From positions 62,001-126,000 of the IMG/VR virus record IMGVR_UViG_3300028384_001500: 64,000 nucleotides of DNA; one strand, 5' to 3'. The stretch is from a virus. The notes under the pieces were generated by a model. The model did no database searches. It was given only the letters and a program-made list of their open reading frames with translations, and was not told the DNA's origin. The position numbers were made by a program, and so were the translations under genes. Below are positions 4,660 through 52,933 of the stretch, piece by piece (position 1 is the first letter of the stretch; every line of letters begins with the position of its first letter).

Positions 4660-4670
4660 TCTCTCCTGAT

Positions 4671-9688: not shown

Positions 9689-10600
9689 CTAAATAATATG
9701 TCCTGAATTAATTTTAATTTCTATTTTGCAATAATCACCTTGACGGTCACATTTAAAATATCGAAAAACTTCTGCTGTAAGATGTTTAATAAAGTTAAGA
9801 TCATATGACAGTGTTTCTTTCACATTTGATGATCGTAAAAAGAACTTTGCGTCCATGTGGCCATCACGAACTAAAAAATGAGCAAGGCTAATACAAGAAT
9901 TATCAGTGTAAATATATCTTCTCGAGTCCAACCCTTCTGCTCTTTCGTACTCATTTTCACCTCGCATTTCTGCTTTAATTTTATTAAATACTGCATTTTC
10001 AATTTTTCGGTAGTATTCTTTTTCTTTGTGGTAGTTTAACATTGTTTTGTTGACGTCGGAAAAATCGCCTGTATCATAATGAACAAAATTAAGGCCTAGT
10101 ACTTCGTTGCCGCTTTTAAGGGCTGCCATTTGTGTTGCTGCGTTACTGAGGTTGGCCATAGAATCATTTTCCAGTTTATAATACTGGTTTACTAAGTCTT
10201 TGACTAACTGTTTATCCACAACCTTACCAATAACTGTCACATTAGGATAATTGCCAAATTCATCAGCAGCCTCTTGAAAAAGATCGTATATTTTTCTAAG
10301 ACTAGTGATGTTTTGAATTGGATCACCTCGTTTTTGAAAACGATCAACAATTACCTTCCATTCAGGCAAGCAGATAATTGTTTGGTTGTTTAAGTTGTGT
10401 AATTCTCGTTTTAATTGTTCAACGTGATTAAAAGTGTCGCGACCGTAATAACGAGCGTGAATAAGCATAGAAAGTGCAGATCGATCTTGAATATTCCACT
10501 TATATCCTGTTTCTTTATGAATCATTTCATAAAGAGTTGTTTTTCCACTACAATCAGGGCCTTCAATAAAAATATAATCAATTGGTGTGCTGTGTGACAT
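9689..10600 (-). CDS. Nucleotide kinase fused to thymidylate-synthase-like C-terminal half
   Basis: 303 residues. The N-terminal part has a P-loop GPDCSGKT (14-21) and the layout of thymidylate/deoxynucleotide kinases. From ~165 the sequence aligns without gaps to the core of ThyA-type synthases: Cys236 sits at the catalytic Cys, VRDGHMD and RSSNV follow (Arg256-Ser257), then SYDLNF, and the end GDYCKIEIKINSGHI mirrors the ThyA Gly-Asp-Phe...His-Leu-Tyr segment. Two changes stand out: the ThyA RSxD Asp is Asn259, and the Asn that selects dUMP (Asn177 in E. coli) is Asp267. Asp at that site is known in dCMP hydroxymethylase. The N-terminal third of a full synthase is missing, so activity is uncertain. 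Confidence 0.65.
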   Translation of the reverse strand: MSHSTPIDYIFIEGPDCSGKTTLYEMIHKETGYKWNIQDRSALSMLIHARYYGRDTFNHVEQLKRELHNLNNQTIICLPEWKVIVDRFQKRGDPIQNITSLRKIYDLFQEAADEFGNYPNVTVIGKVVDKQLVKDLVNQYYKLENDSMANLSNAATQMAALKSGNEVLGLNFVHYDTGDFSDVNKTMLNYHKEKEYYRKIENAVFNKIKAEMRGENEYERAEGLDSRRYIYTDNSCISLAHFLVRDGHMDAKFFLRSSNVKETLSYDLNFIKHLTAEVFRYFKCDRQGDYCKIEIKINSGHII

Positions 10601-10644
10601 TTATTACCTCATTTATATAGTATTATATTTTAAAGGCAATAAAT
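10599..10644 (-). promoter_or_regulatory. SD-occluding hairpin before the kinase/TS-like gene
   Basis: On the minus strand ATTTATTGCCT (10644-10634) can pair with AGGTAATAAAT (10609-10599), 11 pairs with one G-U. This buries the GAGG Shine-Dalgarno (10610-10607) and part of the ATG at 10600. The loop contains a TATAAT box. A transcript arriving from upstream would fold, while one started from the local promoter would lack the 5' arm. Confidence 0.5.
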
Positions 10645-10650
10645 TTACAT
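10622..10650 (-). promoter_or_regulatory. Candidate promoter, AAATGTAA box plus TATAAT
   Basis: Minus-strand ATGTAA (10650-10645, within TTAAATGTAAA) is separated by exactly 17 nt from TATAAT (10627-10622). It would start transcription a short distance upstream of the ATG at 10600. The upstream box is not a sigma-70 TTGACA; it recurs before several other genes here. Confidence 0.45.
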
Positions 10651-10654
10651 TTAA

Positions 10655-11590
10655 TTAAGCAGGAGGAGTACCTCTTAACCAGAAATATAGATCTTTTATA
10701 AAATCTTTAATGTTAGAACTTCCGCCCGGGCCTTTTTTAAGTACTTCTTTTTTAACGAGACGATAGCTACCGTCGCTTTTTTTAACAAGTTGTTCAATAG
10801 TATGCCTTGAACCGTCTTTTCTAATTACATACCTTATCGATCCTTTTCTACCTGCTACATCTTTTAATACATCCCATTCCATCACCGGATCTAAGCCGTC
10901 GTAAGTTAGATCAAATTTACTAGCTATGTCAGGGCTTAGATCAGCCAGATGATCATCAGCAACTCTTAAAAGTTCATCAACAGCTGATTCAGTAGGAGAG
11001 ATAAATGGGTCAAAGACACCTGCAGCTCCGGCAGCAGCAGTTCCGGCTAACATGTTCTTAAGAAGGTCGCGACGGCTTAAATTCATTGACAGATTGGTCA
11101 CGTCAATTGTATTTCCATCGTCTTCGTCAGGCGTCATTTCTATGCTAGGATAGTTGGTTGGTCCTGGCAAAGCATGCATATTTTTTCCTTTACTCGGGCT
11201 TTGAGATTTAGATGAAGCTGGTACTATTTCTTTTTTTGCTGTGGGCTGAAACTGATCTTCCCAGGATCTTTTTTTGTTTGGATCTGCAGATGCGTATTCA
11301 GAACTTCTTCTGTTTATCTTGACCTTTAGCGGTTCGATTGGAGGTACAGACATACCGGCTTCCTTTGCAGCAATTCTTTTTTGTGTTTCTTCTTTGACTT
11401 GCTGAAGGAATATTTGATACATTCTATCGTAATCGTCTAGATCTTTTGCTTGTGCTGCTAACAGTTCAAACTCTTCACCTAGCTCTAACTCTACTTGCAT
11501 TCTAATTAACTCTTTTTCTGATTTGGATAAGCGGGCTTCGTTCAGTATGTTTTTGATTATTTTTTTTAATTTATGCTTCGTTAGTTTCAT
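10655..11590 (-). CDS. Leader-bearing protein with internal Tat-like motif
   Basis: 311 residues. The leader MKLTKHKLKKIIKNILNEA has L-N-E at 16-18 followed by Ala19. Residues 20-75 are a charged helix; 76-165 are low-complexity Ser/Pro/Lys, probably disordered. At 172-178 the sequence reads SRRDLLK, followed by NMLAGTAAAGAAG. This is a twin-arginine signal (S/T-R-R-x-x-L-K plus hydrophobic Ala/Gly stretch) placed in the middle of the protein. The C-terminal 110 residues are mixed alpha/beta with no family recognised. No Shine-Dalgarno precedes the internal Met169, so separate initiation there is unlikely. A processed form could expose the motif, but this is speculation. Confidence 0.6.
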   Translation of the reverse strand: MKLTKHKLKKIIKNILNEARLSKSEKELIRMQVELELGEEFELLAAQAKDLDDYDRMYQIFLQQVKEETQKRIAAKEAGMSVPPIEPLKVKINRRSSEYASADPNKKRSWEDQFQPTAKKEIVPASSKSQSPSKGKNMHALPGPTNYPSIEMTPDEDDGNTIDVTNLSMNLSRRDLLKNMLAGTAAAGAAGVFDPFISPTESAVDELLRVADDHLADLSPDIASKFDLTYDGLDPVMEWDVLKDVAGRKGSIRYVIRKDGSRHTIEQLVKKSDGSYRLVKKEVLKKGPGGSSNIKDFIKDLYFWLRGTPPA

Positions 11591-14100: not shown

Positions 14101-17100
14101 TTAATCAGTTACTAAAGGTCTTACTTTTCTTGAACTAGTGCTAGCACCCCAATTAGGATCGTTAGATGCGTCAGTTAACCATATTGAATACGGCACCATT
14201 GTTTCAGGTTTCTCGCCCCACATTCTTAACCAGCCTGTGTTGTTTTCATAGTCTGTAATTTTAAGTCGATAAAAAGTCTTTTTATTCTTAGTTGTCTTTT
14301 TAATCATGTCAACAATACAACACCAAGCAATGCATTTTTCACCAGGTAACATTTTAAGAACTGACTTAACGCCTGCTGATTGTATTTTTTCCATCATATC
14401 ATCTGGGAAAGCAAGATCATCACGTGTTGCTGAACAAAGATCTTGATACATTGTTAACTTGTCAATTCTACCCCAGTCTTCAATGTCTTTTGTTTGATCA
14501 ATAAGAATAGGCAGGATAGGGTCAGCATCTTTTTTCTTTGCTTGCCGGAGTGTCATACCATACTTTGACTTTTTAAGTGTGTTATAATTTTCAATAATAA
14601 TTTCGTAAAGCTGTTTATGATTATTGATTGTTCCATCCCACATTTCTTGCAGGCCATTAAATGCCTCAACTTGACATAGAGATGCAAAACCGGTTTTGTT
14701 AAGTTTAGAGTGACGCCATTTACCTTCATCATTGAACAACATGTCAGCAACTGATTTATATGGCCTGTTTTGCATAATTTCAACAACTGCTGTTTTACCT
14801 ACACCTTTGATTGATGTTAAGGGTGGTATAAAGGCTTTTTTCTTATCAGACCATTGCCAATATGTACCTGATTCGTTAACATCTGGCAATTCAACACGGT
14901 AACCCATTTCTTTAATTTCAGCAATTGCCTTGGTTAATGCGTTAGGGTTATTGTTTTCTGACTCAAGAATAGTACCTAACCAGTCTGTTTCGTAGTAAGT
15001 ATGCAACCATGCTGCGTAATACGAACCGATTGCATATGCGACAGCATGCGACTTATTAAAACCATAAACTGAGAAGAATTCAATACGCTCCCATAGTTCT
15101 TGCGAGACATGCTCTGGCACACCATTAATTTCTTTCGCACCGGTTACAAACTTAATGCGTGCAGCTTCACGTTCATCACCTTTCTTACCCATTGTATCGA
15201 GAGATTTTTTAACCAAGGTTTTACGAAGTTTATCTGACTCAGCTGGTGTGAAACCGCCTAACTTTTGTGCAAGAAGCATAAACTGTTCTTGAAAGGTAAC
15301 ATGACCAAACGTCGGTCCAAGAATATCCTTAATGATAGGATGATCATAGTGGATTTCATCAGCACGCATTTTATCTTTTACATATTTCTTGTGCACGTTT
15401 GCTCGAAGTGGACCTGGTCGATAAATAGCTGTAAGTGCGGCTAATTCAATAATTGTTGTTGGTTTAGCATCTTCACAAAAGCGACGAGCACCTTCAGCAG
15501 TAAATTGAAAAACACCTACCTTGCGACGCTGATGGTATACATGTTTCCAAACCTCAGGATCGTCTTGTTCTACATAACGACAATTTAGATGCTTATCAAA
15601 CCAATCACGAATTTCTAGAAATGTAGGTTCTTTACCTGTTTCACGCGTCAAAATACGCTTAATGCAGTTTTCAACGTCTTTAAGTAGTGTTAAGCCAAGA
15701 AAGTCAAACTTAATAAACCCGTTATCTTCAAGATTACGAAAGTTCATACCTTCTGTCCACGGTGTTTGTAGTTCACCTCGCACACCAATAATAGGCATGC
15801 CGCGAGCTAAATCATCAGCTGGGCCAATAATAACACCACCTGCGTGTCGACCAATCGATCGATTTTGCATGAATAGTGCTTCGATATGATCCTTTACTTT
15901 TGGGTATTTTTCCATAAAAGAGCGGTAACCTTTTGAATATGTCATGCAGTCTTCGTGTTTAAGAACAAATACAGACTTTTCAGTATTTTCATCACGAGCT
16001 TGAGACATCACCTCATCTTGTAAAGGGCCGGTCATTTTATTTACTTCAGCAAAGTCGACACCGTAAAACTTAGCGATATCTTTAACAAGTGATTTAAGCT
16101 TAAGTGTGTTAAAGTTGGAGACAGGAATTACAGCTTCATCGCCATATAGTTCACGGGCAGCGTTAATTAGCGCATCACGATCACCAGCATCAGAGTCGAT
16201 ATCGGGCCACGAAGTACGATGTCGACCTAGAAAACGCTCCCATAGCAAATCATATTTAAGTGGATCAACTTGGGTAATCCCTAATAAGTAATTTACTAAT
16301 GAGCCTCCACCAGAGCCACGGGCTGCGCCAAATAGAGTATGATCTGCTGCCTTATGAAAGACTTCATTCATTACTAAGAAGTAGTTTTCGAATCCGAGGA
16401 ACTTGATGTCTTCGAGCTCGTGTTTTGCTCGTTCAACGTATTCAGTTTTTGTATGAAGGCCTTCTTTAACAAGTGCTTGTTTGACTTTTTGCGCCAGCTG
16501 TTGAAAAGCAGTTTGATTAGGGTTGTTGAAATCGGGAAGCTTAACAGAAGTATCAATCCAACAGTCTTCACACTTTTGCCATGCAATATCATGTGTAATT
16601 TCAATCGATCTTTTAATTGTTTCTTCATATCCTTCGTATGTTTCTTTATATTCGTCATAATGTCGTGTAAATTCATCCCACATCTGTGTTGCGTTCTTTG
16701 GATAAAGCTCACATTTTAGATCTTCAAACTCTGGTAACGGACTTGGGTCGTTACCCATCCACCCTAATTTTTTATAAAGTTCTCTTGCCTCCCATTTATC
16801 AGGTGAATAATAGTGTGAGTCTGGCGTGGATATCAGCTGTAAACCTGTTTGATCAGCATGCCGCAAGAGATGATGATTAACAAGGTGCTGCTGTTTAAGT
16901 CGATTAAATTGCAACTCTAAGTAGAAGTTATCTTCACCTACAGCGTCAACAAATCGCTCAGATAAGTATGACAGTTCTTGCTGAATTTGCTCGTCTGATA
17001 TTTTTAAAGCATTACCACGCATAATACGATTAGAATATATTCCACCTAGACAGGCTGTAGAAACATTGAGCCCTTTACCGTATTGTCTAAGCAGGTCAAA

Positions 17101-17619
17101 GTCAATACGAGGATATCTATAAAAGCCATCAGTATAAGCACGTTTAATTAGAGTAAATAAGTTACCTAAACCTTCACGGTTTTGCGCAGTAACTACCAGA
17201 TGATAACGTCGTTTCCATTCGTCTTTACCTAAATCAAAAGACTTAGTTTCTTCTTCGTTTTCAATGATATGACCACCTTCTTCCTCTTCTTTGATTGCCT
17301 TTTTCTTTGCAGCAGCTCGATCGATTTTAGCTTGTTCATAATCAGCTTTCCAGTCTTTAAGTGAAGGAACAAAATAAAACTCACAACCGTAAATCTGACG
17401 AAACTTACGACCAGACTTTTTAACTTTTTCAGCATGCTTATGAGCATGTGCCAATCCACTACCGTTTCCATGATCAGTTAATGCCCAAGCATCCATGCCG
17501 TTTTCTAGTACAAAGTCAATATGGTCAGAGGGGTACCCTAATCCATCAAAAACAGAAAAACCTGTGTGACCGTGAAAACCAACAAATCGATCGGGCGGGG
17601 TAAGTAATTTGATATCCAT
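14101..17619 (-). CDS. dnaE: Family C replicative DNA polymerase (Pol III alpha-like)
   Basis: 1172 residues, about the size of bacterial DnaE. PHP domain at the N-terminus (FHGHTGFSVFDG, ALTDHGNGSG). The polymerase palm shows ARGSGGGSLVNYLLG (~433), DPLKYDLLWERFL and the catalytic PDIDSD (~471), followed by RSIGRHAGGVII, GVFQFTAEGARRFC and YGFNKSHAVAYA. The second conserved segment is SDAGDRD instead of the usual IDF-x-x-x-R. This would be the main replicase, replacing the family B enzyme of T4-type phages. The start ATG at 17619 has AAGGAG at 17634-17629, inside a hairpin (separate entry). Confidence 0.93.
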   Translation of the reverse strand: MDIKLLTPPDRFVGFHGHTGFSVFDGLGYPSDHIDFVLENGMDAWALTDHGNGSGLAHAHKHAEKVKKSGRKFRQIYGCEFYFVPSLKDWKADYEQAKIDRAAAKKKAIKEEEEGGHIIENEEETKSFDLGKDEWKRRYHLVVTAQNREGLGNLFTLIKRAYTDGFYRYPRIDFDLLRQYGKGLNVSTACLGGIYSNRIMRGNALKISDEQIQQELSYLSERFVDAVGEDNFYLELQFNRLKQQHLVNHHLLRHADQTGLQLISTPDSHYYSPDKWEARELYKKLGWMGNDPSPLPEFEDLKCELYPKNATQMWDEFTRHYDEYKETYEGYEETIKRSIEITHDIAWQKCEDCWIDTSVKLPDFNNPNQTAFQQLAQKVKQALVKEGLHTKTEYVERAKHELEDIKFLGFENYFLVMNEVFHKAADHTLFGAARGSGGGSLVNYLLGITQVDPLKYDLLWERFLGRHRTSWPDIDSDAGDRDALINAARELYGDEAVIPVSNFNTLKLKSLVKDIAKFYGVDFAEVNKMTGPLQDEVMSQARDENTEKSVFVLKHEDCMTYSKGYRSFMEKYPKVKDHIEALFMQNRSIGRHAGGVIIGPADDLARGMPIIGVRGELQTPWTEGMNFRNLEDNGFIKFDFLGLTLLKDVENCIKRILTRETGKEPTFLEIRDWFDKHLNCRYVEQDDPEVWKHVYHQRRKVGVFQFTAEGARRFCEDAKPTTIIELAALTAIYRPGPLRANVHKKYVKDKMRADEIHYDHPIIKDILGPTFGHVTFQEQFMLLAQKLGGFTPAESDKLRKTLVKKSLDTMGKKGDEREAARIKFVTGAKEINGVPEHVSQELWERIEFFSVYGFNKSHAVAYAIGSYYAAWLHTYYETDWLGTILESENNNPNALTKAIAEIKEMGYRVELPDVNESGTYWQWSDKKKAFIPPLTSIKGVGKTAVVEIMQNRPYKSVADMLFNDEGKWRHSKLNKTGFASLCQVEAFNGLQEMWDGTINNHKQLYEIIIENYNTLKKSKYGMTLRQAKKKDADPILPILIDQTKDIEDWGRIDKLTMYQDLCSATRDDLAFPDDMMEKIQSAGVKSVLKMLPGEKCIAWCCIVDMIKKTTKNKKTFYRLKITDYENNTGWLRMWGEKPETMVPYSIWLTDASNDPNWGASTSSRKVRPLVTD

Positions 17620-24562: not shown

Positions 24563-25162
24563 TTAAAAAGAAGACTTCATAGATGCATCACCAGATGACT
24601 TTGCTGATTTTGCAATTGAATCTGTTGACTTTCTTAAAGAGTCAGCAGATGAATCCATTGCAGCACTTAATATGTCACCAAAAGAAAACTTTTTCTGTTT
24701 TTCTTTATCCATTGTAAAAGTTTTACCCATTGTAGAAGCTTTTGGTCCCGCAACAACTCTAAATTTGTCACCACCAGCTTTCTGATAAAGATACGGATCT
24801 TGCTTTCTAGATCCTACTTCACCCATTTCTGTCATACCGCTTGACCAAAATTTATCTAACCCCTTCCAAATAAAGTAGTCTTTTGATTTTAAATCTTTTC
24901 CTGTTCTTTTTCCAATTGAATTCATTACATTCTTAACTTGATTATTAGTTCCAGGTGCAGCATCACCAACACCATATTGGTTCCCGCCAAAGTGAATTTT
25001 AAGTGCTTCTTTGTTTGATTTATCAGCAACAAAGTGTCCTGAATTTGGTAACATGTCGTCACCAAACATTTTCTTTGCCATTTGTTCAAAAGCGTTTTCG
25101 TTGATTGCGTAACTAATAGCTTCGTTAATAAGTCGTCTAAGCTGCATTCTAGAAAGTTTCAT
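24563..25162 (-). CDS. Leader-bearing small protein, Ser/Lys-rich tail
   Basis: 199 residues from the ATG at 25162; an upstream TTG at 25174 is rejected because it lies in the Shine-Dalgarno (GGAG-TATAAT-ATG). The leader MKLSRMQLRRLINEA has I-N-E at 12-14 then Ala15. A second N-E follows at YAINENAF. The middle is Gly-rich and basic (HFGGNQYGVGDAAPG, WKGLDKFW), and the C-terminus is a low-complexity Ser/Asp/Lys helix. No known domain. It is the first gene after a terminator, so this cluster begins a new transcript here. Confidence 0.55.
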   Translation of the reverse strand: MKLSRMQLRRLINEAISYAINENAFEQMAKKMFGDDMLPNSGHFVADKSNKEALKIHFGGNQYGVGDAAPGTNNQVKNVMNSIGKRTGKDLKSKDYFIWKGLDKFWSSGMTEMGEVGSRKQDPYLYQKAGGDKFRVVAGPKASTMGKTFTMDKEKQKKFSFGDILSAAMDSSADSLRKSTDSIAKSAKSSGDASMKSSF

Positions 25163-25174
25163 ATTATACTCCAA

Positions 25175-25689: not shown

Positions 25690-26676
25690 TTATTGTCTCC
25701 CCATAAATTGATTATGTTCTTGTGTTAGTTCGTTAATTTCGCTTAAAGCATTTTCCCATAGCTTTGTAAATACTGTGTCGCCACCTGGGTTTTCTGTACC
25801 ATTAATGTCTTCCCGGCGTGATTGATATATACTGTCATTTGGGTGATAATCAAAGATATCATTCTTGGGTTCTGGCCAGTAAAGATTCGTACCTCTAGAT
25901 GTGTGACCACCTTTACCATCAGGTACTCGGAAAGTTTTAACGTAATGCATATCTGGTTTGCCGAAATTAATACGTGTACTTGCTTCAGGTAAAACTTTAA
26001 GTACTTCTCGTGCCATGTATGCAGCAAGCAGATTATCAGCTGCAGGTTGAATTTGCATATCTTGACGTTGAGCAATAAAACCTAACAGATCTTTTAAATT
26101 AAGACGCATTAGATAGAATGACGTCATTGCTTTTGGAAGTATCATTCGAGCGTCCATCATAGATACAGCTTTTGAGTCTGTCATATCTGCGTAGAGCTGT
26201 TTTGACTCACGTACGAGACGGCGCCACCTATCAGCAAACTCAGGACTATTTTGTACTGATTCAGGAATAACTGCATCGTCATGGCGCAAGTCGCGGTCAC
26301 CTGTACATTGTGCTGCAAAAGAACCAGCACGATGGCGAATAATATGAGTAACTTCTTGAAATGAAAGCCCTGACAATTTAAAGGTAAAACCTAGACATTC
26401 CATAGGGGTTGGTAATGCACGAAAATTAAGTACATCTTCAAGATTTTCTGACAACTCTTTTAAAGAAGCTGTTGCCGGGTTTGTGTCATCGTGATGATCA
26501 GCCCAAGTAGCTTTTACATATTGCCATGCAACATTAAGCGCTTGAGATCGAGTTGGTGCATCTACAAGTTCTACTTTAAGTGCTTTAAGGTTATTATGAA
26601 ATGTTGTTTTTGGTTCTTCACCAAACTTTAAATCCATTGGTAAAGTAATAGGAATTAAATTTAAGTTTTGAGGCAT
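25690..26676 (-). CDS. thyX: Flavin-dependent thymidylate synthase
   Basis: 328 residues, longer than the usual 220-250. The ThyX motif is RHRAGSFAAQC: RHR and the first Ser are kept, but the position usually Ser (RHR-x7-S) is Cys. The second half has LPKAMTSFYLMRLNLKDLLGF, FIAQRQDMQIQPA and a C-terminal extension of ~70 residues (YWPEPKNDIFDYHPND). It methylates dUMP using methylene-tetrahydrofolate and FAD. This is the phage's complete thymidylate synthase; the ThyA-like piece at 9689-10600 is partial. Confidence 0.93.
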   Translation of the reverse strand: MPQNLNLIPITLPMDLKFGEEPKTTFHNNLKALKVELVDAPTRSQALNVAWQYVKATWADHHDDTNPATASLKELSENLEDVLNFRALPTPMECLGFTFKLSGLSFQEVTHIIRHRAGSFAAQCTGDRDLRHDDAVIPESVQNSPEFADRWRRLVRESKQLYADMTDSKAVSMMDARMILPKAMTSFYLMRLNLKDLLGFIAQRQDMQIQPAADNLLAAYMAREVLKVLPEASTRINFGKPDMHYVKTFRVPDGKGGHTSRGTNLYWPEPKNDIFDYHPNDSIYQSRREDINGTENPGGDTVFTKLWENALSEINELTQEHNQFMGRQ

Positions 26677-28784: not shown

Positions 28785-29594
28785 CTACTTTTGAAATGAT
28801 GGTACCCAATGTGTTGTTCTTTTATCAGCAGTTTTTTCTTTAATTACTGCCCTTCCATTTGGGTCAGTTTTCTGATTATACACTGCAAATCTTCGACTGT
28901 ACAATCCTTCCTTACCATTTGGTTGCCTATAACTTTCAATTGTTGCACCACCTATTTTGTACGATCTTTTTGATTGAGTAAACGTATTATAGTAAAGATC
29001 ATGCCATTCATCGTTAGATATGTCTTTAACCAATCGATTAGGTGATACTTTGGAATTCCAAAGAATTTCAGCCTTGAGGTAATTACCAACCCCTGAAATA
29101 ACTGATTGATTCATAAGACATTCCGCAATTGTTTTGTTTTGTTTTTTAATAAATCTATTTTTAAAACCTTTCCAATCGATATTTGCTGTTAAAACATCTG
29201 GACCTAATGAATTAAGCTTTTTATTTAAAACTTTTTTATCGTTAACAAATTTAAGTGTTCCAAAGTTTCTAATATCATTATAATAAAGTTCTGTTCCATC
29301 GTCAAAAAACATTACAAATCTTGCGTGTTTGTGTCGTTTATTACTCCACATACCAGTCATTCCTAGTGTACTAAAAAGATAATATTCGCTATAACCTTCA
29401 GTAAAGGTTATATAAATAAATTTACCTTTGCAATTTGCTGCATGAAATATTGCTGGTAAAGTAATAATATCTTCTCCGGGTATACTACCTTTTTTACTAT
29501 AACGACCGGATAATATTGAATATCCTGTCAAACCTTTTCCGTTAAATTGCGTTAAAAAGTCTGTTGTTGTTCTTACTTCTGGTCCTTCTGGCAT
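28785..29594 (-). CDS. Fpg/Nei-family DNA glycosylase with zincless finger
   Basis: 269 residues. The N-terminus PEGPEVR supplies the catalytic proline and glutamate (Pro2, Glu3). The helix-two-turn-helix reads SVISGVGNYLKAEILWNSKVSP. At the C-terminus, where Fpg/Nei carries a four-Cys zinc finger, the sequence is YNQKTDPNGRAVIKEKTADKRTTHWVP with no cysteine. The finger's Arg (ADKRTTHWVP) and the overall hairpin remain, as in zincless NEIL1- or plant-type enzymes. It excises oxidised bases and nicks DNA. In a phage with SOD and a Dps-like protein it adds to oxidative-damage defence. Confidence 0.88.
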   Translation of the reverse strand: MPEGPEVRTTTDFLTQFNGKGLTGYSILSGRYSKKGSIPGEDIITLPAIFHAANCKGKFIYITFTEGYSEYYLFSTLGMTGMWSNKRHKHARFVMFFDDGTELYYNDIRNFGTLKFVNDKKVLNKKLNSLGPDVLTANIDWKGFKNRFIKKQNKTIAECLMNQSVISGVGNYLKAEILWNSKVSPNRLVKDISNDEWHDLYYNTFTQSKRSYKIGGATIESYRQPNGKEGLYSRRFAVYNQKTDPNGRAVIKEKTADKRTTHWVPSFQK

Positions 29595-41123: not shown

Positions 41124-41726
41124 CTATTCTAAATTAATTGTAACATCCAAGTCAACACTCATTTTAGGCACTCTTAAGTGATTTGCTAAATTATGCTTTT
41201 TAGCTTCAGTCGAATCTAAAAACCAATCAGCGTGCTTTTTCTTATCTACTAGCTTAAGAAAGTAGTCATCTGCCTTGCCGCAGTTTTGTGCCATCATTTT
41301 ATACACAATTTGATTAAGGCGATCTGACTCTTTTGCAGAAGCTTTTACTTCTTCTACTTTACCTAGTTGTCCTGAACTTACGTCGTGGATCATAAGTGTT
41401 GCGTTAGGATCCATGAATCTACGTCCTTCTTCTCCAAAAGAAAATAGTATAGCTCCACAACTCATTGCTTTTCCTTGCACGATTGTTGCAACAGGTAATT
41501 CTGCGTTTTTAATTGTAGAAATCATCGACATCAAAGAGTATACTTGGCCACCGTAACTATCAATAACAATTGGAATTACTTTTTGCCCTGTGTTGTGTGC
41601 CATTGCCATTTTTGTTGCAAACTCTTTTGCGCTTTCTTCATCAAACTTATTAACTCTAACAATTACAGGTTGTAAGTGTAATTCATATTCTTTAACAAGT
41701 GGCGATGTATTATATTTCCAAAGCAT
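41124..41726 (-). CDS. ClpP-like serine protease
   Basis: 200 residues. The catalytic triad of family S14 is in place: Ser89 in GKAMSCGAI, His114 in TLMIHDVSSG and Asp171 in DWFLDSTEA. VIDSYGG near 54-60 provides the oxyanion glycines. It has no N-terminal propeptide. Two roles are possible: a phage copy of the host ClpP altering proteolysis, or a head-maturation protease, as in some phages. A T4-type gp21 protease is not in this window. It begins a transcript after the NrdJ terminator. Confidence 0.82.
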   Translation of the reverse strand: MLWKYNTSPLVKEYELHLQPVIVRVNKFDEESAKEFATKMAMAHNTGQKVIPIVIDSYGGQVYSLMSMISTIKNAELPVATIVQGKAMSCGAILFSFGEEGRRFMDPNATLMIHDVSSGQLGKVEEVKASAKESDRLNQIVYKMMAQNCGKADDYFLKLVDKKKHADWFLDSTEAKKHNLANHLRVPKMSVDLDVTINLE

Positions 41727-41812: not shown

Positions 41813-44287
41813 TTATCCGCATTTACTGCTACCGCAAGACTTACATGTGACACAGCCTTCTTGATATACTAGGCTACCTTCTGCTCCACAGTGTGGGCAT
41901 TTTTTAGCAACCTTAGTTCCGTCGACAATGTAGTTTTTAAGACAGCGGGAAATAACCTTTGAAAAACTAAACATGTCCATTTCTTTGTCTTTTTGCATTT
42001 GTTCAACTAAGTACTGAACTGGTACTCCATGTCGCAAAGAAGTAGAAATAACTCTTGTATAACCGGCATGATTAGGATTGTCAAAGACAGATACTACGTC
42101 TTTTATAATAAGGGTATTATCGTCTTTTCCTACTGTTAGGTCGTATTTACTATTCTTGGTCTTGAAAACTCTTTTTTGGAGTTTACCATGTTTATATCTT
42201 GTCGGGATTTCTATCTGATCTGCTTCGCCGCCAATGACTTCATAAGGCATTCCGTCTAGGAGGCCAACTAACACTACCCATTTTTGTCCTTTAACAGACG
42301 TGTGGTATATGTCGCAATCTAACTCTTCCGGTCTTTTTGGCGCATCTCTTTCTACAATTTTATTATTATCTTCTTTCTTATCATCTGTTGAAACTAGCAC
42401 ACCTGATCGTGAACCATCGCGGTATACAGTCACACCTTTGCATCCGAGCTCCCAACCAAGCATGTAAATGTCTTTTACTGTCTCTACGTCAATGTCATTT
42501 GGAAGATTAGTAGTATTCGAGATAGCATGGCAGATCCACTTTTGTGCAACTGACTGGAGTTTCACCTTTGCACGCCAATCAATTTCATTAGCAGTGCCAC
42601 CATGATATGGAGAGCGTTCGATTGCTGTATCTACTTCCTCGTCAGAAACGTAATTCACGGCCATCCATTCTTTAAATTTGTGATGGTACACATTAAACTC
42701 TGTCCATTCGTCGCCAAGATCGTCTACAAACATCACCTTCTCACCGTTTTGCACTTTCTTACGTCTCTTGTAGTACAGCATGAAAGCAGGTTCAATACCT
42801 GATGTAGTTTGGGTGAGACATGACACTGAGCCGGCAGGTGCTGTTGTTGTGTTCGCAATGTTGCGACGTCCGTAAGTACGATAATCTTCAACAACTTCAG
42901 GCGTCAATTCGCTAATAACTCTTTTTAGGAAAGGGTGAACTTTTTCTTTTCTGTGATTAAATATTTCAAAAGCGCCTCTTTCTTTTGCAAGCTGAATAGA
43001 TTCTTCGTAAGAAGCAAGTGACAACCATTTATAGATCTCTTCAACTGTTTCGATTGATTTATCATCACCATATATCTGGCCTAACATAGCGATAGTGTCG
43101 CCTAATCCAGTTACACCTAGGCCAGTTCTACGACCGTTTTGAGCGACCTCTTTAATCTTAAGCCAGAGCTGTTTTTCTGGTAATTTTGTTTCATCTCCTT
43201 CGGGGTCGCTATCAATTTTTGCAAGAATTTTATCAATCTGTTCAATTTCAAGATCGATCATGTCGTCCATTAAGCGCTGAGCTTTTCGAGAATAGTTTCT
43301 AAACTTACCCCAATCGAAACTTGCTTTGTCTGTCCATGCGTTTTCTACGAAGGAGGTGAGGTTCATTAGCATAAGACGACATGAGTCATACGGGGAAAGG
43401 ATAATTTCTCCGCAAGGGTTCGTCGACACAGAGCCAAAACCTACATCCGAGTAAGCATCAGATGGAGTCATGCGTGTGGCTGTATCCCAGAAAAGAACGC
43501 CTGGTTCTGCTGATGCGTGTGCTCCTTCGATAAGTTCGTTCCAAACTTCTGTTGCTTTTAAGTGGTCATGAACTTCAGGATTATCTGAGTCGACTGGCCA
43601 TCGAACTGTATAGTGATCATCATTTTTTACAGCATTCATAAACTCGTCTGTGACGCGAACAGAGATATTGGCACCTGTCACTTTTGTCAAGTCTCGCTTA
43701 ATTCTAATAAAGTCTAGTACTTGTGGGTGGTGAACAGAGATTGAAAGCATTAATGCACCTCGGCGACCACCTTGTGCAACCTCTCGACATGAGTTTGAAA
43801 ACCTTTCTAAAAAGACCTCAATACCGTCTGTAGTTTTTGCTGCATTTGATGTGATCATTCCCTTAGGGCGAATAGTGGAAACATCAAAGCCTACGCCACC
43901 TCTTCGCTTCATAATCTGTACTTGCTCTTGGTCTGTCTTTAGAATCCCACCGTAAGAGTCTTCTGGCGCTTCAATTACAAAGCAGTTAGATATAGACTGT
44001 ATTTTTGCTTTATTTCCAATACCACTCATAGGTGATCCTTGAGGTACCACAAAGCGAAACCCTTGAAATAAGCCATATATCTCTTCAAAGCTCATTGGGT
44101 TGTCATATTTTTGTTCAATACGGGCAAATTCCTTTGCCAATCTTTTGTGCATATCATCCGGTGTTAATTCCAGATAACTGCCTTCTTCATCTTGCAATGC
44201 ATATTTTCCTGCAAAAACTGATGCTGCTAATTCGTCACCACCAAAATATTCTAGCGACGATTCATAAACCTTTTGATAATCGTACAT
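41813..44287 (-). CDS. nrdJ: Class II (adenosylcobalamin-dependent) ribonucleotide reductase
   Basis: 824 residues. Signatures: SISNCFVIEAPEDSYGGI, MKRRGGVGFDVSTIRP, STNPCGEIILSPYDSC (active-site Cys and Glu), TTTAPAGSVSCLTQT, and GVTVYRDGSRSGVL. The C-terminus carries two Cys-x-x-Cys groups (CPHCG and CKSCGSSKCG, about 797-823) for redox relay. The B12-dependent class II enzyme makes dNDP/dNTPs without a separate radical subunit, so no NrdB is needed. It implies a host that makes or imports cobalamin. Last gene of the recombination/replication operon. Confidence 0.92.
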   Translation of the reverse strand: MYDYQKVYESSLEYFGGDELAASVFAGKYALQDEEGSYLELTPDDMHKRLAKEFARIEQKYDNPMSFEEIYGLFQGFRFVVPQGSPMSGIGNKAKIQSISNCFVIEAPEDSYGGILKTDQEQVQIMKRRGGVGFDVSTIRPKGMITSNAAKTTDGIEVFLERFSNSCREVAQGGRRGALMLSISVHHPQVLDFIRIKRDLTKVTGANISVRVTDEFMNAVKNDDHYTVRWPVDSDNPEVHDHLKATEVWNELIEGAHASAEPGVLFWDTATRMTPSDAYSDVGFGSVSTNPCGEIILSPYDSCRLMLMNLTSFVENAWTDKASFDWGKFRNYSRKAQRLMDDMIDLEIEQIDKILAKIDSDPEGDETKLPEKQLWLKIKEVAQNGRRTGLGVTGLGDTIAMLGQIYGDDKSIETVEEIYKWLSLASYEESIQLAKERGAFEIFNHRKEKVHPFLKRVISELTPEVVEDYRTYGRRNIANTTTAPAGSVSCLTQTTSGIEPAFMLYYKRRKKVQNGEKVMFVDDLGDEWTEFNVYHHKFKEWMAVNYVSDEEVDTAIERSPYHGGTANEIDWRAKVKLQSVAQKWICHAISNTTNLPNDIDVETVKDIYMLGWELGCKGVTVYRDGSRSGVLVSTDDKKEDNNKIVERDAPKRPEELDCDIYHTSVKGQKWVVLVGLLDGMPYEVIGGEADQIEIPTRYKHGKLQKRVFKTKNSKYDLTVGKDDNTLIIKDVVSVFDNPNHAGYTRVISTSLRHGVPVQYLVEQMQKDKEMDMFSFSKVISRCLKNYIVDGTKVAKKCPHCGAEGSLVYQEGCVTCKSCGSSKCG

Positions 44288-44300
44288 TAAGTCTCCCTGA

Positions 44301-45683
44301 TTATTTTCCTGTTATCTCTTTCCATTTTGATTTAAGCATGTTTTTTGTTCCAACATTAGAGGCTTCAACTACATCTGCAATTGACATTTCTCCAACGTCT
44401 TCTAATACGTTAATTTTTGACATTGACGTATCGATACGGATTGGGAACATTAATCCGTCGCGACCTGCACGATTTTTTGCCACAAAGAGTCGACCTGCTC
44501 CTGTAGATTTTTCCATAGGCTTACGTGAAAGTGAAACAACAACATCTGCCACCATGGCTTTACCATATGCCTCAGACATATTTTCCAATCCTACAACATC
44601 AGCTTTAGCAGAGTCTCTGTTTGCTTGTGATGCTGTCCAGATAGGTATATTCATTTCCATTGCCAAGTTCCTAAGTTCTTCATATACTAATTTTAGTTCG
44701 TGTCTAAGTGAATCGTAAGTTCGTGTTGATCGCATAATATCCGCATAATCGATCACGAGTAAGCTCGGTTTGAAATCTTTCATAGCTAGTTTTTCTAGGT
44801 GATTTCTAATAGTTACGATGCTTGCCGCGCCGGTCGGGTATTGCTTAATTATTAAGCGACCATAGTCATTTTCTGAATAAGTTTCGAGTATTTTTTCTTT
44901 ATGTTGAATAACATTTGAAGATGGTATACTACATAAATTACTGTCGTATCTTATACCAACTGCAGTTTCAGTTAATTCAAAAGTATAATGAACTACATTT
45001 TTTCCACGACGCAATGCCTCAGCACCCATAGCAACTAGGTAATGAGATTTTCCAACCCCAGTATTAGCAACTACAACGCCAATTTCACCTCGTCCTAAGC
45101 CACCGTTTAAGACATCTTTTTTGTCCAAATGGCTAATACCTGTTGGGCATGTTGCACGATCAATAAGTTGAAAGCGCGCTTCATGGTCTTCAAAAAAGTC
45201 ATGACCTGTCGTTGATGAACTACCTTTAAAGACAGCATCTTTCATAATACTAAGAACAGACTCGTAATTTTCTGACTTAATTGCTTTTACACTATCTTCA
45301 AGTGCTTGTTGGAGTGCTTGTTTCTTGCAAAAGTCAAGCGATTTATCTTTTACGTACTTGAGATCTGTTAGGTTGGGATTTGCTTTCATGCGAGAAAGAT
45401 ATTCAATTACTTGTTCTCGAAGAATAACATCATCGCCAGTAGACAAATCATCCTTGATAATAGAAACTAATAATGGGAGTGTCGGGAAGTTCCTATATTT
45501 TTCATGAAAACTGAAAAATCTGTCACAAAGAAATTGGAGATATTTAAGTTCAAAGTAGTCATATTTCATTACCTCCATCATTTGTGAAGCCCAAGAATGA
45601 TCATCTAAAAGTGCTTGAAAAATCTTTTCTTGAAAATCTTTTCCGTATTTTGAAAAGTAATTGATATTTGCTGATGCGTTCAT
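44301..45683 (-). CDS. Replicative DNA helicase (DnaB/T4 gp41 type)
   Basis: 460 residues. The N-terminal helical domain (1-150) is followed by the RecA-fold motor: Walker A ANTGVGKSH near 206-214, Walker B region SLLVIDYADIM, TASQANRDSAK and arginine-finger region KNRAGRDG. It is closest in layout to T4 gp41, a 5'-3' hexameric helicase. It overlaps the exonuclease gene by one nucleotide (TAATG). The primase partner is not in this window. Confidence 0.9.
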   Translation of the reverse strand: MNASANINYFSKYGKDFQEKIFQALLDDHSWASQMMEVMKYDYFELKYLQFLCDRFFSFHEKYRNFPTLPLLVSIIKDDLSTGDDVILREQVIEYLSRMKANPNLTDLKYVKDKSLDFCKKQALQQALEDSVKAIKSENYESVLSIMKDAVFKGSSSTTGHDFFEDHEARFQLIDRATCPTGISHLDKKDVLNGGLGRGEIGVVVANTGVGKSHYLVAMGAEALRRGKNVVHYTFELTETAVGIRYDSNLCSIPSSNVIQHKEKILETYSENDYGRLIIKQYPTGAASIVTIRNHLEKLAMKDFKPSLLVIDYADIMRSTRTYDSLRHELKLVYEELRNLAMEMNIPIWTASQANRDSAKADVVGLENMSEAYGKAMVADVVVSLSRKPMEKSTGAGRLFVAKNRAGRDGLMFPIRIDTSMSKINVLEDVGEMSIADVVEASNVGTKNMLKSKWKEITGK

Positions 45684-46660
45684 TATAAAATTTTTCCTTG
45701 TTTGAGGTTTCTAAAAAGATACCCATGTTGAAGAATATCAATGTTGTTTATATTATTTTCTTTTAGGTATTTTATTGCATTCATATTATTCCATGCCGGC
45801 TTAAAATTTTCAATGCTTTCATCAAGTTTTTTGGTTTGCATATGTACTAAGTTGTCTACATCCAATCTAACCAATCTAATATTACGCTCTATCAACTTTT
45901 CGTTATCTTTAATGGATTTATATATCTTTTTCTTTGGATTGTCTTGGTGTTTAACGTCGTTCTCTACAAATAATTGAAATGCATTACTTTCGAAGTCTTC
46001 TTTTTTAAGCAGATCTCCGTATTCCTTTACCAGTGTTTTATAACCAGCACCCGGGACTCCTGGAATATTATCTGACTTATCACCTACTATTGATTTAGCC
46101 AGGCAGAAGTTATGAGGATGAACACCATACTTTTCTAAGACTTTGTCCGTGTTAATAAATGACTTTGAGTTTGGAGAATACAGAATGCAATTCTCGTCAA
46201 CAAGTTGATAAAAATCATGATCGCCTGTAACAATAATCTTATTTTTATCTTTGAGTTTGTATTTTGCCATATAGCCAATTGCGTCGTCAGCCTCTGCGTC
46301 TTCTATGTAGACTTGACAGACAGGTAGGTTACTCAGTATTCCTACAAGATTTCTAATTTGAAAGTTTCTGTTTTCAACTGTGTCTGGTATTTCTTCTTTA
46401 TCATAATACCGATTCATCTTTGCCGGTCGACTTCCGCGTTTATAATCTGGATATAGATCTCTTTTTCGCTTGCTTCCTCCACCTTCCCAAACAACAATTA
46501 CACCTTCAGGCTTGCACTTTTCAATAAGGTTAATGAGATTGTAGTAAAAACCCACAATCCCGCCTATTTGTTCACCGTTTTCTGACATTGCCGGATGCGC
46601 TATATAATGCCTCATAAAAACATTGAGTGCATCAAATATAAGAATTCTGTCTTTTACCAT
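45683..46660 (-). CDS. 5'-3' exonuclease / flap endonuclease
   Basis: 325 residues. PIN/FEN metal-binding acidic clusters: ILIFDALN, EDAEADDAIGYM, VTGDHDFYQLV, and a helix-three-turn-helix IVGDKSDNIPGVPGAG. It belongs to the Pol I 5'-nuclease/T4 RNase H family and removes RNA primers and flaps. In this phage the nuclease is a separate gene and neither polymerase carries it. Start overlaps the uvsX stop by 1 nt. Confidence 0.92.
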   Translation of the reverse strand: MVKDRILIFDALNVFMRHYIAHPAMSENGEQIGGIVGFYYNLINLIEKCKPEGVIVVWEGGGSKRKRDLYPDYKRGSRPAKMNRYYDKEEIPDTVENRNFQIRNLVGILSNLPVCQVYIEDAEADDAIGYMAKYKLKDKNKIIVTGDHDFYQLVDENCILYSPNSKSFINTDKVLEKYGVHPHNFCLAKSIVGDKSDNIPGVPGAGYKTLVKEYGDLLKKEDFESNAFQLFVENDVKHQDNPKKKIYKSIKDNEKLIERNIRLVRLDVDNLVHMQTKKLDESIENFKPAWNNMNAIKYLKENNINNIDILQHGYLFRNLKQGKIL

Positions 46661-47826
46661 TATAAGTCACTCTCATCAAAGTCTAAGAGTAAATTACCAA
46701 CTTCTTTTACTTCCTCATATGACTCTGTGTCAATATCAACGCCGTCAGATGTGCCCATCTTTTTAATCATTGCGTCTTTAAGAATAATATTGACAATCGG
46801 ACCCCAGTAGTTATCTTCCATAATTTCGTTAAACTCAGTTTTTCTAAACTTTTTAGAGTCTATTTCACTACCGTTTTCATCCATAATTTGAATTGTTTTC
46901 CAGCCACCAGTACCAGAAACAAGATAACATCGATCTTTATGAGTTACCATGCCGTGTTTTCTTAATAAGTCAAAAGTCTCTTCATGTTCAACAATACCTT
47001 TTCCAAAGTGAATCTGGAATGCTACTTTTCTAAAAGGCGGTGCAACTTTGTTTTTAACCGTTTTAGCCCAAACATTAATACCGATAACGTCGTCACCATC
47101 TTTGATCTGTTGTCCCGCTCCCAATTTGATTCGTATAGATGAGTGAAAAGGGATTGCCTTACCTCCGGGTGTAGTATCAGGATCTCCATACATAACTCCT
47201 ACTTTTGTTCGTATTTGATTTAAGCAAACTAAAAGACTGTTTGTTTGCCCAATCACACCTGTAATTTTTCTCATACCTTTAGAAATAGCCCTTGCTTGGA
47301 GCCCAATACTTTCTTTGTCATAATCACCTAACAACTCTGCTTTTGGAGAAGATGCAGCAACACTATCCCATATAATAGTAACAGGTACATCTTTATCTAA
47401 AGCTCGTGCTTTAAGAATAGTTTTTTCAGCCAAATCAAGAACTTCTTCAGTACAATGTGTATCTACATATACAAACCTTTGAGAGACATCTACACCTAAG
47501 TTGCCTAAATTTTCAATACTTGTTGCGTTCTCAGTGTCGATGTAAACAACAATACCACCCATTTTTTGGGTACTTCTTGCAATTTGCGTGGCGATGTGAG
47601 ATTTTCCAATCGATGGCGGCCCGAACATTTCAACAATTCTTCCTTCTGGAAAACCTCCATTTTCTTGATTAGCACAGATATAGTCTAGCATTTTAGACCC
47701 TGTGCTAATCCATCTTTTTACTTGCGTAGGGCTTTCGTCTTCTGCAAGGTTATAAGCAACTTTTGTTTTATAATCTTTGTTTAAAGACTTAATAAGCTGC
47801 GAGGTAAAATCATCTTTCTTTCCCAT
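46660..47826 (-). CDS. uvsX: RecA/UvsX recombinase
   Basis: 388 residues. Walker A GPPSIGKSH (67-75), VVYIDTENA, VTIIWDSVAAS (Walker B), LLVCLNQIRTKVG (L2/Gln region) and TTPGGKAIPFHSS are RecA-family hallmarks. It forms filaments on ssDNA, probably working with the gp32-like SSB at 50.5 kb. The acidic C-terminal tail (DESDL) is typical. First gene of the operon, with its own promoter just upstream. Confidence 0.93.
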   Translation of the reverse strand: MGKKDDFTSQLIKSLNKDYKTKVAYNLAEDESPTQVKRWISTGSKMLDYICANQENGGFPEGRIVEMFGPPSIGKSHIATQIARSTQKMGGIVVYIDTENATSIENLGNLGVDVSQRFVYVDTHCTEEVLDLAEKTILKARALDKDVPVTIIWDSVAASSPKAELLGDYDKESIGLQARAISKGMRKITGVIGQTNSLLVCLNQIRTKVGVMYGDPDTTPGGKAIPFHSSIRIKLGAGQQIKDGDDVIGINVWAKTVKNKVAPPFRKVAFQIHFGKGIVEHEETFDLLRKHGMVTHKDRCYLVSGTGGWKTIQIMDENGSEIDSKKFRKTEFNEIMEDNYWGPIVNIILKDAMIKKMGTSDGVDIDTESYEEVKEVGNLLLDFDESDL

Positions 47827-50487: not shown

Positions 50488-51267
50488 TTAACTCATAAGA
50501 TCAGAAAAAGCATCGTCTAGACTAGAGTAACTTTTTCCACCTTCGTCACTAGAGCTTTTAGAAGAAGTTTCATTGCTACTAGTCCATTCAGATCCAGTGC
50601 TTTCTGCTTCTTCTTCACCGTTAAGCCAGTTATTGATAATATTACTTAGTTCGTCGTATGACTTAAGTCTAAAAATATTATTAATATCTGGAATACCGTC
50701 TACCCATTCTTTTGCTTGACTCTTATCTTTAGAAAGAGCAGATGCTTTACGAACAGGGAGTACTTCAGTTTTTGCCCATTGTTGGCCAGGTGATTTAGTA
50801 CATTTAATCTTAAGATCAGTGCCTGTTTTAAGATCTGTAATATCACCGTAGTCTTCATCCATCATAAGTGATAGTAGCGACTGATACACTAATTTACCAA
50901 ATGACCAAATACGTACACCTTCACCTTCTTCACCTCGTACAACGACTGGTGCGTATACACGCATTTTAGGATACAATTTTTTTGCCATTTCATAGCTTTC
51001 TTTTGTTCCTTCGTCGCGAAGCTTATTAATCAACTCTTGGATTGGGTCACGCTTACCAAATTGGCTTGGTGCCAGTAATCCTCGTTGACCGGGAATATTG
51101 TAGTAGAATTGTAATTCTTTGAATGGTTGCCCGTCGTTATCAGGAAAAGAAAGAAGTCTTACTTTATATTCTTGCCCCTCTTCAGGTTTCCACATTACAT
51201 TTCTGCTAGTGTTATTACCGCTAAGTTTGTCTAGTTTACGTTTAATCGCATCAAAATCAAGTGCCAT
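50488..51267 (-). CDS. Single-stranded DNA-binding protein, T4 gp32-like
   Basis: 259 residues from ATG 51267 with GGAGG 5 nt upstream; the ATG at 51279 lies within that Shine-Dalgarno and is rejected. Basic N-terminus (FDAIKRKLDKLSG), then the core with KVRLLSFPDNDGQPF, YYNIPGQRGLL, MRVYAPVVVRGEE, RIWSFGKLVYQSLLSLM, as in gp32. A Ser/Glu-rich acidic tail (TGSEWTSSNETSS) ends in DDAFSDLMS. The tail would recruit the helicase, recombinase and polymerases. The zinc-finger cysteines of T4 gp32 are absent. Confidence 0.85.
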   Translation of the reverse strand: MALDFDAIKRKLDKLSGNNTSRNVMWKPEEGQEYKVRLLSFPDNDGQPFKELQFYYNIPGQRGLLAPSQFGKRDPIQELINKLRDEGTKESYEMAKKLYPKMRVYAPVVVRGEEGEGVRIWSFGKLVYQSLLSLMMDEDYGDITDLKTGTDLKIKCTKSPGQQWAKTEVLPVRKASALSKDKSQAKEWVDGIPDINNIFRLKSYDELSNIINNWLNGEEEAESTGSEWTSSNETSSKSSSDEGGKSYSSLDDAFSDLMS

Positions 51268-51365
51268 TATTTCCTCCATTAATGTTTAACTTGTAATGTT
51301 CAAATTGCAATGTTTAAATTGAACTATAACATTATAGACAGTAATTAGAAGATTTATTAAAAAAT
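51268..51365 (-). promoter_or_regulatory. SSB leader region with -10 box and repeats
   Basis: 98 nt without a gene. It contains a minus-strand TATAAT (51336-51331), then an imperfect inverted repeat GTTCAA(A/T)TT...AATTTGAAC and a TTGTAATGTT/TTGCAATGTT direct repeat before GGAGG. A structured leader would allow the autoregulation known for T4 gene 32; this is inference. Confidence 0.4.
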
Positions 51366-51854
51366 TTACTTGTAAGGAAAACTTTTTTCTCTATTGAACT
51401 TTTGACGCTTTTTTCTTTGTCTTACAGTCTCTGGTCGACCTTTACTAGTAAAGCCCATAGGAACAGCTGGGCCGGCTACGCCTCCTGCGGACATCTCATC
51501 AATCATATCGTCTAGGCCTTCTAAGTCTTCAACCTTTTCTTTACTTTTTCTAGACTGTCTAACTAGCTTTTGGTTCATTGCGTTAAGATCGTCTACACTG
51601 GTCTCAAAAATATTTTCTAGCGTTTCTACTAACATATATTTTCCTGCGCGATAAACTCTACATTCTAATATAATGTCTTCGTCGTCTTCTTCCATTTCAT
51701 CAAATTCGTAACCTTTATTTACCCTTTGAGAGTATCTAGAAAAAGCTGTATCAGCATCTGCCAAAGGTGCTGTTGTATTTTTATGCCTGTAACCACCTGC
51801 ACCAAAACCATCCGGTCTAAATGCACCCATTCCTATTTCTTTTAATTTTTTCAT
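51366..51854 (-). CDS. Hypothetical protein, charged
   Basis: 162 residues. N-terminal Gly-rich segment (GMGAFRPDGFGAGGYR), acidic middle (FDEMEEDDEDIILECRVYRAG), a helix (LENIFETSVDDLNAMNQ) and a very basic C-terminus (RPETVRQRKKRQKFNREK). It lies between the family A polymerase and the SSB, so a DNA-replication accessory role is possible. No recognised motif. Confidence 0.5.
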   Translation of the reverse strand: MKKLKEIGMGAFRPDGFGAGGYRHKNTTAPLADADTAFSRYSQRVNKGYEFDEMEEDDEDIILECRVYRAGKYMLVETLENIFETSVDDLNAMNQKLVRQSRKSKEKVEDLEGLDDMIDEMSAGGVAGPAVPMGFTSKGRPETVRQRKKRQKFNREKSFPYK

Positions 51855-51865
51855 AATAATAACTA

Positions 51866-52933
51866 TTATGAATATACTTTAAATTCTATCGGAATTGTAA
51901 TGTTGCTTATTTTTTCTGTTATACTTTTAATGTTTTTTAATTCTTTTAGTCTAGACTTTTCTATTTGAAATGTCATGCTATCATGTATAAAAAAACATCT
52001 GTCTACTTTTAAAGTCTGGGCAAAGTCATAGAAAGCCAAAGAGCAATAATCAACAGCAGAAGACTGAATCCAGTAGTTGATTAAATTGCTGTCGCTTGTA
52101 ATTGGACGTCCGTAATAGTTAAGCATAAAACCATTATCTTCAAACTCTTTTGTTAAATCGCTATTAAGTTTGTTAAGTCCTATTTCTTCCTTAATTTTTC
52201 TTACATTCGTGACACTAGTTTGCATAATTCTAGAAATAGTGTTTTCATTTGCGCCATATATCATCGATAGTATACCTCGTTTAAAACTATCACGGTCAGT
52301 AATTTTTACATTATAGTTATTAGATATCCATTGATATACATCTTTTACGCCTTTCAAATCATAGCCTTTTGATAGTAAATAAAAGAAAGGTTCGCAAGAT
52401 TTAAAATCAACCTCAACCAATACCTTACTATCATCAATTGACTTAAGTCTGTAACGATTTTCTTTTTTCATTGTTAAGAAATTATAGCCCTTATGTATAC
52501 CGGTTCTTCCTGTCACACCGGCGTGATTATAGTGTGGTACTTCTAATATTTCACCGTTCAAACTAACATTTTTAAGATCTAGATAACACTTTTTCCTAAT
52601 TGGGAATATTGATGTGTGATAATTAGTAACTAAATTAATAGTATCTTTAATAGAGTTAAATAAATACTCAGTGTATTCTCTGGACTTAGGTTTACCTAGT
52701 AATTTATTCACCTCAAGACTACCTGAAATATTTAAGCAGTTTAACCCTGGATAGTATTCTTTTACAGTTTTAATCTTATCTAAGTTAGACAATTGTCTAA
52801 TATTTGATAGTGATTGAATTGTTAAAGTTGTCTTAGCTTTCTCAGATATGCTAATAGATATATCTTTTTTGTTCAAAGAATAATCTTTATTAATAACAAC
52901 TGAATTTATAATTTCTTTATTTCTAATACTCAT
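51866..52933 (-). CDS. Standalone family A DNA polymerase core (palm/fingers), no exonuclease
   Basis: 355 residues, about half of a normal Pol I Klenow fragment. Motifs in order: TGRTGIHKGYNFLTM (141-155, the T-G-R...N-L motif), motif A VEVDFKSCEPF with Asp176 and Glu181, motif B RDSFKRGILSMIYGANE with Arg214, Lys218, Tyr226-Gly227, WIQSSAVDY (Gln290), and motif C FFIHDSMTF (His317-Asp318). Glu at motif A +5 is the DNA polymerase steric gate; T7-type RNA polymerases have Gly there. The Phe/Tyr762 position is Leu. No 3'-5' exonuclease domain is present. It has no Shine-Dalgarno and may be near-leaderless. Possible repair or accessory polymerase beside the DnaE-type replicase. Confidence 0.8.
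   Translation of the reverse strand: MSIRNKEIINSVVINKDYSLNKKDISISISEKAKTTLTIQSLSNIRQLSNLDKIKTVKEYYPGLNCLNISGSLEVNKLLGKPKSREYTEYLFNSIKDTINLVTNYHTSIFPIRKKCYLDLKNVSLNGEILEVPHYNHAGVTGRTGIHKGYNFLTMKKENRYRLKSIDDSKVLVEVDFKSCEPFFYLLSKGYDLKGVKDVYQWISNNYNVKITDRDSFKRGILSMIYGANENTISRIMQTSVTNVRKIKEEIGLNKLNSDLTKEFEDNGFMLNYYGRPITSDSNLINYWIQSSAVDYCSLAFYDFAQTLKVDRCFFIHDSMTFQIEKSRLKELKNIKSITEKISNITIPIEFKVYS

Follow-up and report, generated by a model that had tools for sequence, protein, structure and literature searches.

Why does a phage that encodes a full DnaE-type (family C) polymerase also carry a family A polymerase of 355 residues with no exonuclease? This question was raised by a first-pass annotation of a 64,000-bp stretch, bases 62001-126000 of a 236,652-bp IMG/VR virus record, which is called the window here and from which positions are counted unless stated otherwise. 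The annotation gave no strand for the polymerase. The ORF call puts the gene, here named compact PolA, on the minus strand (Table 1), and the plus strand at these positions is full of stops.

Compact PolA gene and its motifs

Through alignment with E. coli Pol I and T7 polymerase, we confirmed that the protein is a family A polymerase with its catalytic residues at the positions first proposed. Motifs A, B and C contain the Asp/Glu, Arg/Lys/Tyr and His-Asp residues of the family, and all listed catalytic residues align with T7 polymerase as well as with Pol I. Q290 corresponds to Q849 of E. coli Pol I, and Leu222, four residues after the motif B Lys (K+4), occupies the 762-equivalent site. The E. 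coli Pol I residues in these comparisons are D705, E710, R754, K758, F762, Y766, Q849, H881 and D882.

The Pfam DNA_pol_A match to the protein had an E value of 1.9e-6, under the gathering score. A profile of the compact family matched the solved structures of pol nu (5e-10) and Aquifex Pol I (5e-9, profile residues 33-334). No 3'-5' exonuclease domain is fused to the polymerase; the fused 5'-3' exonuclease and the 3'-5' exonuclease-fold domain of bacterial Pol I (PolA1) are both missing, and DNA_pol_A_exo1 (PF01612) had no match anywhere in the whole record.

Table 1. Compact PolA, its motifs and the replication and repair genes of the window
Feature	Position	Strand	Evidence or remark
Compact exonuclease-free family A DNA polymerase	51866..52933	minus	355 aa ORF; Pfam, profile, model, alignment
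Motif A, D176-x4-E181 (catalytic Asp + steric-gate Glu)	52391..52408	minus	E. coli D705/E710
Motif B, R214-x3-K218-x3-L222-x3-Y226	52256..52294	minus	E. coli R754/K758/F762/Y766
Motif C, H317-D318	51980..51985	minus	E. coli H881/D882
Small acidic protein between polymerase and SSB	51366..51854	minus	Recognisable in subset of relatives
gp32-like single-stranded DNA-binding protein (SSB)	50488..51279	minus	Pfam gp32 6e-10; same place in relatives
RecA-like recombinase	46660..47826	minus	Pfam RecA 1.5e-65
Stand-alone 5'-3' exonuclease (FEN)	45683..46660	minus	Pfam 5_3_exonuc_N 2.4e-26
DnaB-like helicase	44301..45683	minus	Pfam DnaB_C 7.6e-19
Ribonucleotide reductase (RNR) large subunit	41813..44287	minus	Pfam Ribonuc_red_lgC 1e-87
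Fpg-type DNA glycosylase	28785..29594	minus	
DnaE-type (family C) polymerase, 1172 aa, presumed main replicase	14101..17619	minus	Pfam PHP, Pol3_alpha, finger, HHH

Predicted structure

An AlphaFold2 model built with 43 homologues reached a mean pLDDT of 93.6 and a pTM of 0.90. It has the palm-fingers-thumb fold of Pol I, and in sequence and model alike the active-site constellation appears intact. The top solved matches in Foldseek were Pol I large fragments (E about 4e-12), and VIA-align gave Z values of 19.8 for Bst Pol I, 19.8 for pol theta, 19.7 for pol nu and 19.4 for Klenow. Because T7, pol nu and apicoplast polymerases fit at similar Z, the fold search singles out no one relative. The match to Bst runs mostly from model residues 33-355 on Bst 388-870, i.e. 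it begins at the thumb, indicating that the protein has thumb, palm and fingers but no exonuclease domain, in agreement with the first-pass annotation. Judged from alignment and model, compact PolA is most likely a catalytically competent polymerase cut down to palm, fingers and a shortened thumb.

Homologues and conservation

A search with the neighbouring SSB recovered 80 viral loci, and in most of the longer ones a homologue of compact PolA was found just upstream; a profile search of the compact family added further homologues beyond these SSB-linked loci. The phages with this gene are large and uncultivated. None of the listed catalytic residues is lost in any of the 62 distinct homologues (334-405 aa). 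Y135, G142, R143, D176, E181, D198, Y200, R214, K218 and Y226 are invariant in 62/62, and so are Q290, S291, D295, H317 and D318. This invariance rules out a chance ORF or a pseudogene. No match to the 355-aa protein or to a distant family member (L077) was found by tblastn in 50,697 phage records, and scanning 84,980 prokaryote genomes on the basis of the profile revealed no relative of compact PolA.

In two contigs the reading frame of the homologue is split, into 258+106 aa in overlapping frames (L022/L110) and into 277+69 aa (L121). In these two, the split may reflect sequencing error, a pseudogene or recoding.

The 762-equivalent site is Leu in 38 homologues, Ile in 21 and Met in three, and is never aromatic. 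Leu at this site is therefore no peculiarity of the 355-aa gene; Leu762 is also common in virioplankton PolA (PMC6302109). The Leu762 groups described there are without RNR genes, whereas the compact family lies near an RNR gene. Among mutant enzymes, Taq polymerase with Leu at this position was slower but gained accuracy (Suzuki et al. 2000, cited in PMC6302109), and T7 polymerase with Leu there lost 97% of its activity (PMC13228545). By analogy with these Taq and T7 mutants, an effect of Leu222 on nucleotide discrimination, as first proposed, is plausible.

Gene neighbourhood and replication proteins

The order baseplate/tail genes, PolA, a hypothetical gene in some cases, SSB, RecA, FEN, DnaB and RNR was found in essentially every homologous locus that was long enough. 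The first-pass annotation had placed a family C polymerase and a separate 5' exonuclease in the same window, and both were recovered. The DnaE protein carries the PDxDxD motif (PDIDSD at residue 472). DnaE accompanies compact PolA in 8/8 contigs long enough to test, 20-36 kb downstream of it. In five further compact-PolA contigs DnaE is missing, but each of these stops within 33 kb downstream of compact PolA, and the contig ends can explain the absence. PolB was not found in any of the compact-PolA contigs examined (eight with DnaE and five without).

A stand-alone DnaQ-like 3'-5' exonuclease is encoded elsewhere in the record (record positions 4441-5016) and could proofread for DnaE. The record also encodes a DnaG-like primase and a sigma factor. 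A search confined to the NAD-dependent type revealed no ligase in the record, so ligation may rely on the host.

The window further contains, all on the minus strand, a ThyX-type thymidylate synthase (25690-26676), a thymidine kinase (4671-5249), a Fe/Mn superoxide dismutase (2442-3119) and a ClpP-like protease (41124-41726).

Relationship to divPolA1 and other known systems

The divPolA1 reported by Yutin et al. 2024 from 14 genomes, those of Flavobacterium phage immuto and related phages, is a polymerase with truncated thumb and inactivated exonuclease domain; it lies in a conserved replication neighbourhood, is accompanied by a regular A, B or C polymerase, and was judged active and tied to replication (PMC11348598). 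We found no published biochemistry on divPolA1 or on the compact type. In the immuto record the divPolA1 gene stands at the same place as compact PolA, and the regular PolA is elsewhere. In profile searches, a divPolA1 comparison set assembled from viral contigs matched the compact family with E values from 1e-10 to 8e-12.

The compact type, divPolA1 and 12 regular PolAs were placed in one maximum-likelihood tree (40 sequences). Support was 99/98 for the compact type, 100/99 for divPolA1 and 98/94 for the regular PolAs, each group forming one side of a branch; compact type and divPolA1 therefore stand together against the regular PolAs (98/94), in a tree that has long branches and a root assumed among the regular PolAs. 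Given the shared slot and the tree, common descent of the two is the simplest reading, with an in-place swap at the slot as the alternative.

Compact PolA is the exonuclease-free sister type of divPolA1. Both occupy the slot upstream of SSB-RecA-FEN-DnaB-RNR, and both are second polymerases beside a regular one. The model of immuto divPolA1 (441 aa, pLDDT 88.0) fits Bst 300-875 over residues 1-441 with a Z of 26, exonuclease domain included; divPolA1 thus retains a vestigial exonuclease domain, whereas the compact type has none. In the alignment, divPolA1 shows Glu to His, Arg to Tyr and His to Tyr changes in motifs A, B and C respectively, and the compact type keeps the canonical residues. 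One slot therefore holds two lineages degraded in opposite ways: in the divPolA1 lineage the exonuclease fold persists in dead form and three active-site residues have changed, and in the compact lineage the exonuclease domain is gone and the active site is preserved.

The presence of two polymerase families in one phage had been considered remarkable. The co-presence stands, but phages with two polymerase families were already described (PMC11348598, PMC7824862), and the compact type is distinct from immuto-type divPolA1; a published divPolA1 protein from marine bins (records such as MK892584, LR796625, MK892766 and MK892784) may already be of the compact type. Group 2.2 jumbo phages also have two polymerase families in one large phage, but there PolB is accompanied by a split Pol III alpha (family C), not by a family A enzyme (PMC7824862). 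The divPolA2 of barbaviruses is likewise a palm protein of family A that has no exonuclease and accompanies a regular polymerase, and it occurs with PolB (PMC11348598). By the published description it is set apart from the compact type in that an unrelated domain at the N-terminus replaces the thumb and the gene neighbourhoods vary (PMC11348598).

Compact PolA shares with bacterial Pol I and Klenow the palm-fingers-thumb fold and all polymerase motifs. Unlike Pol I, it lacks the 3'-5' and the fused 5'-3' exonuclease, its FEN is a gene of its own, and it has Leu/Ile/Met at 762 and S/A/D/G in place of E883.

Two further genomes carry divPolA1-like proteins. In Microcystis phage Mel-JY01 (PP395634.1), the gene four before SSB (4602-5828, 408 aa, WWT39333.1, annotated hypothetical) encodes a divPolA1-like polymerase; a 428-aa gene just upstream of SSB was rejected as a homologue, being S-AdoMet lyase-like. 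The Mel-JY01 gene annotated as DNA polymerase I (9997-11037, WWT39339.1) matches the stand-alone FEN of the window and is not a polymerase. In LR756508.1, a 484-kb unannotated uncultured phage, a divPolA1-like protein of 452 aa is encoded in the same slot (6521-7879), and this genome also has family C and family B polymerase matches.

Proposed role of compact PolA

We consider it somewhat probable that compact PolA is an active, non-proofreading auxiliary polymerase, which together with the separate FEN forms a two-piece Pol I for primer replacement, gap filling and repair. The fold, the invariant residues, the fixed gene order and the constant company of DnaE and a separate FEN count for this role. 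The invariant steric-gate Glu indicates a DNA rather than an RNA polymerase. In such a scheme DnaE would copy the genome, the separate FEN would remove RNA primers and flaps, and compact PolA, with low processivity and no proofreading, would extend the upstream 3' end over the resulting gap ahead of ligation. Gaps that arise in recombination (with RecA and SSB) and in excision repair (with the Fpg-type glycosylase) could be filled by this enzyme as well. The two-piece reading fits the situation in bacteria, nearly all of which have FEN function and, where they lack Pol I, obtain it from a stand-alone protein (PMC12926913). What Pol I combines in a single polypeptide would here be split over two genes. 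On the other side, the gene order is equally compatible with a role at the fork, the record contains no NAD-dependent ligase, and Leu762 was so costly to T7 polymerase, though natural Leu enzymes exist.

The first-pass annotation had called both enzymes replicative-type, which is overstated for the small one, since without proofreading it looks auxiliary. A core fork polymerase, serving one strand or initiation and recombination-dependent replication with DnaE as exchangeable partner, is nevertheless conceivable, and we regard it as rather unlikely. In the wider group the small PolA and SSB-RecA-FEN-DnaB-RNR are constant while the regular polymerase varies among A, B or C (PMC11348598); it is C in the compact group, A in immuto and B in Mel-JY01. 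This pattern favours a fork role, but compact PolA differs from fork polymerases in having no proofreading domain and a shortened thumb, and PHP-DnaE, the DnaQ-like exonuclease and the DnaG-like primase already make up most of a Pol III-like replisome in the record.

It is also unlikely that compact PolA is a polymerase for lesion bypass or error-prone repair, as are pol nu, pol theta and actinobacterial PolA2. Pol nu is the closest solved relative by profile, the enzyme has no proofreading and a non-aromatic 762 site, and RecA and Fpg are encoded in the genome. The similarity to pol nu is, however, just slightly above that to Pol I, 355 residues can hardly accommodate insertion loops such as those of pol nu and pol theta, and the constant place by SSB, FEN and DnaB points to replication and not to damage response. 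An obligatory two-polymerase replisome, in which the mini-PolA is fixed and defines lagging-strand or recombination-primed synthesis while the regular A, B or C polymerase is interchangeable, seems to us quite doubtful.

An inactive structural or regulatory subunit is very improbable: the strong divergence from other PolA (Pfam score under the cutoff), the reduced size and the frames split in two contigs would suit it, but the metal- and nucleotide-binding residues are all invariant in 62 distinct sequences. A PolA-derived RNA polymerase or primase in the manner of T7 RNA polymerase, an option raised for divPolA2 (PMC11348598), is hardly credible here, given that the steric-gate Glu is invariant in 62/62, the N-terminal promoter-binding domain is missing, a DnaG-like protein and a sigma factor are already in the record, and the solved matches listed for compact PolA are DNA polymerases.

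As an auxiliary polymerase or otherwise, compact PolA is very small for an enzyme with an intact active site, its family members going down to 334 aa. Small size together with the intact active site makes the family a natural test of a minimal Pol I and possibly a small polymerase tool.

Other observations in the record

A common N-terminal tag, MK(I/L)(T/S/N)(R/K)xxLRxLIxE, for example MKITRRQLRQLIIEA, is present on at least 16 of the record's proteins; none was found in shuffled sequences. The tag-bearing proteins include two in the window (24563-25174 and 10655-11590, both minus strand) and others in the rest of the record (L004, L005, L007, L009, L012). The tag looks like a T4-type capsid-targeting sequence with a gp21-protease-like (I/L)xE end, and if it serves as such, the phage would have many internal head proteins.

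The record also encodes a PrkA-type serine kinase (L011, 13661-15598, minus strand; AAA_PrkA 8e-142, PrkA C-terminal domain 2e-77), which is an unusual phage cargo.
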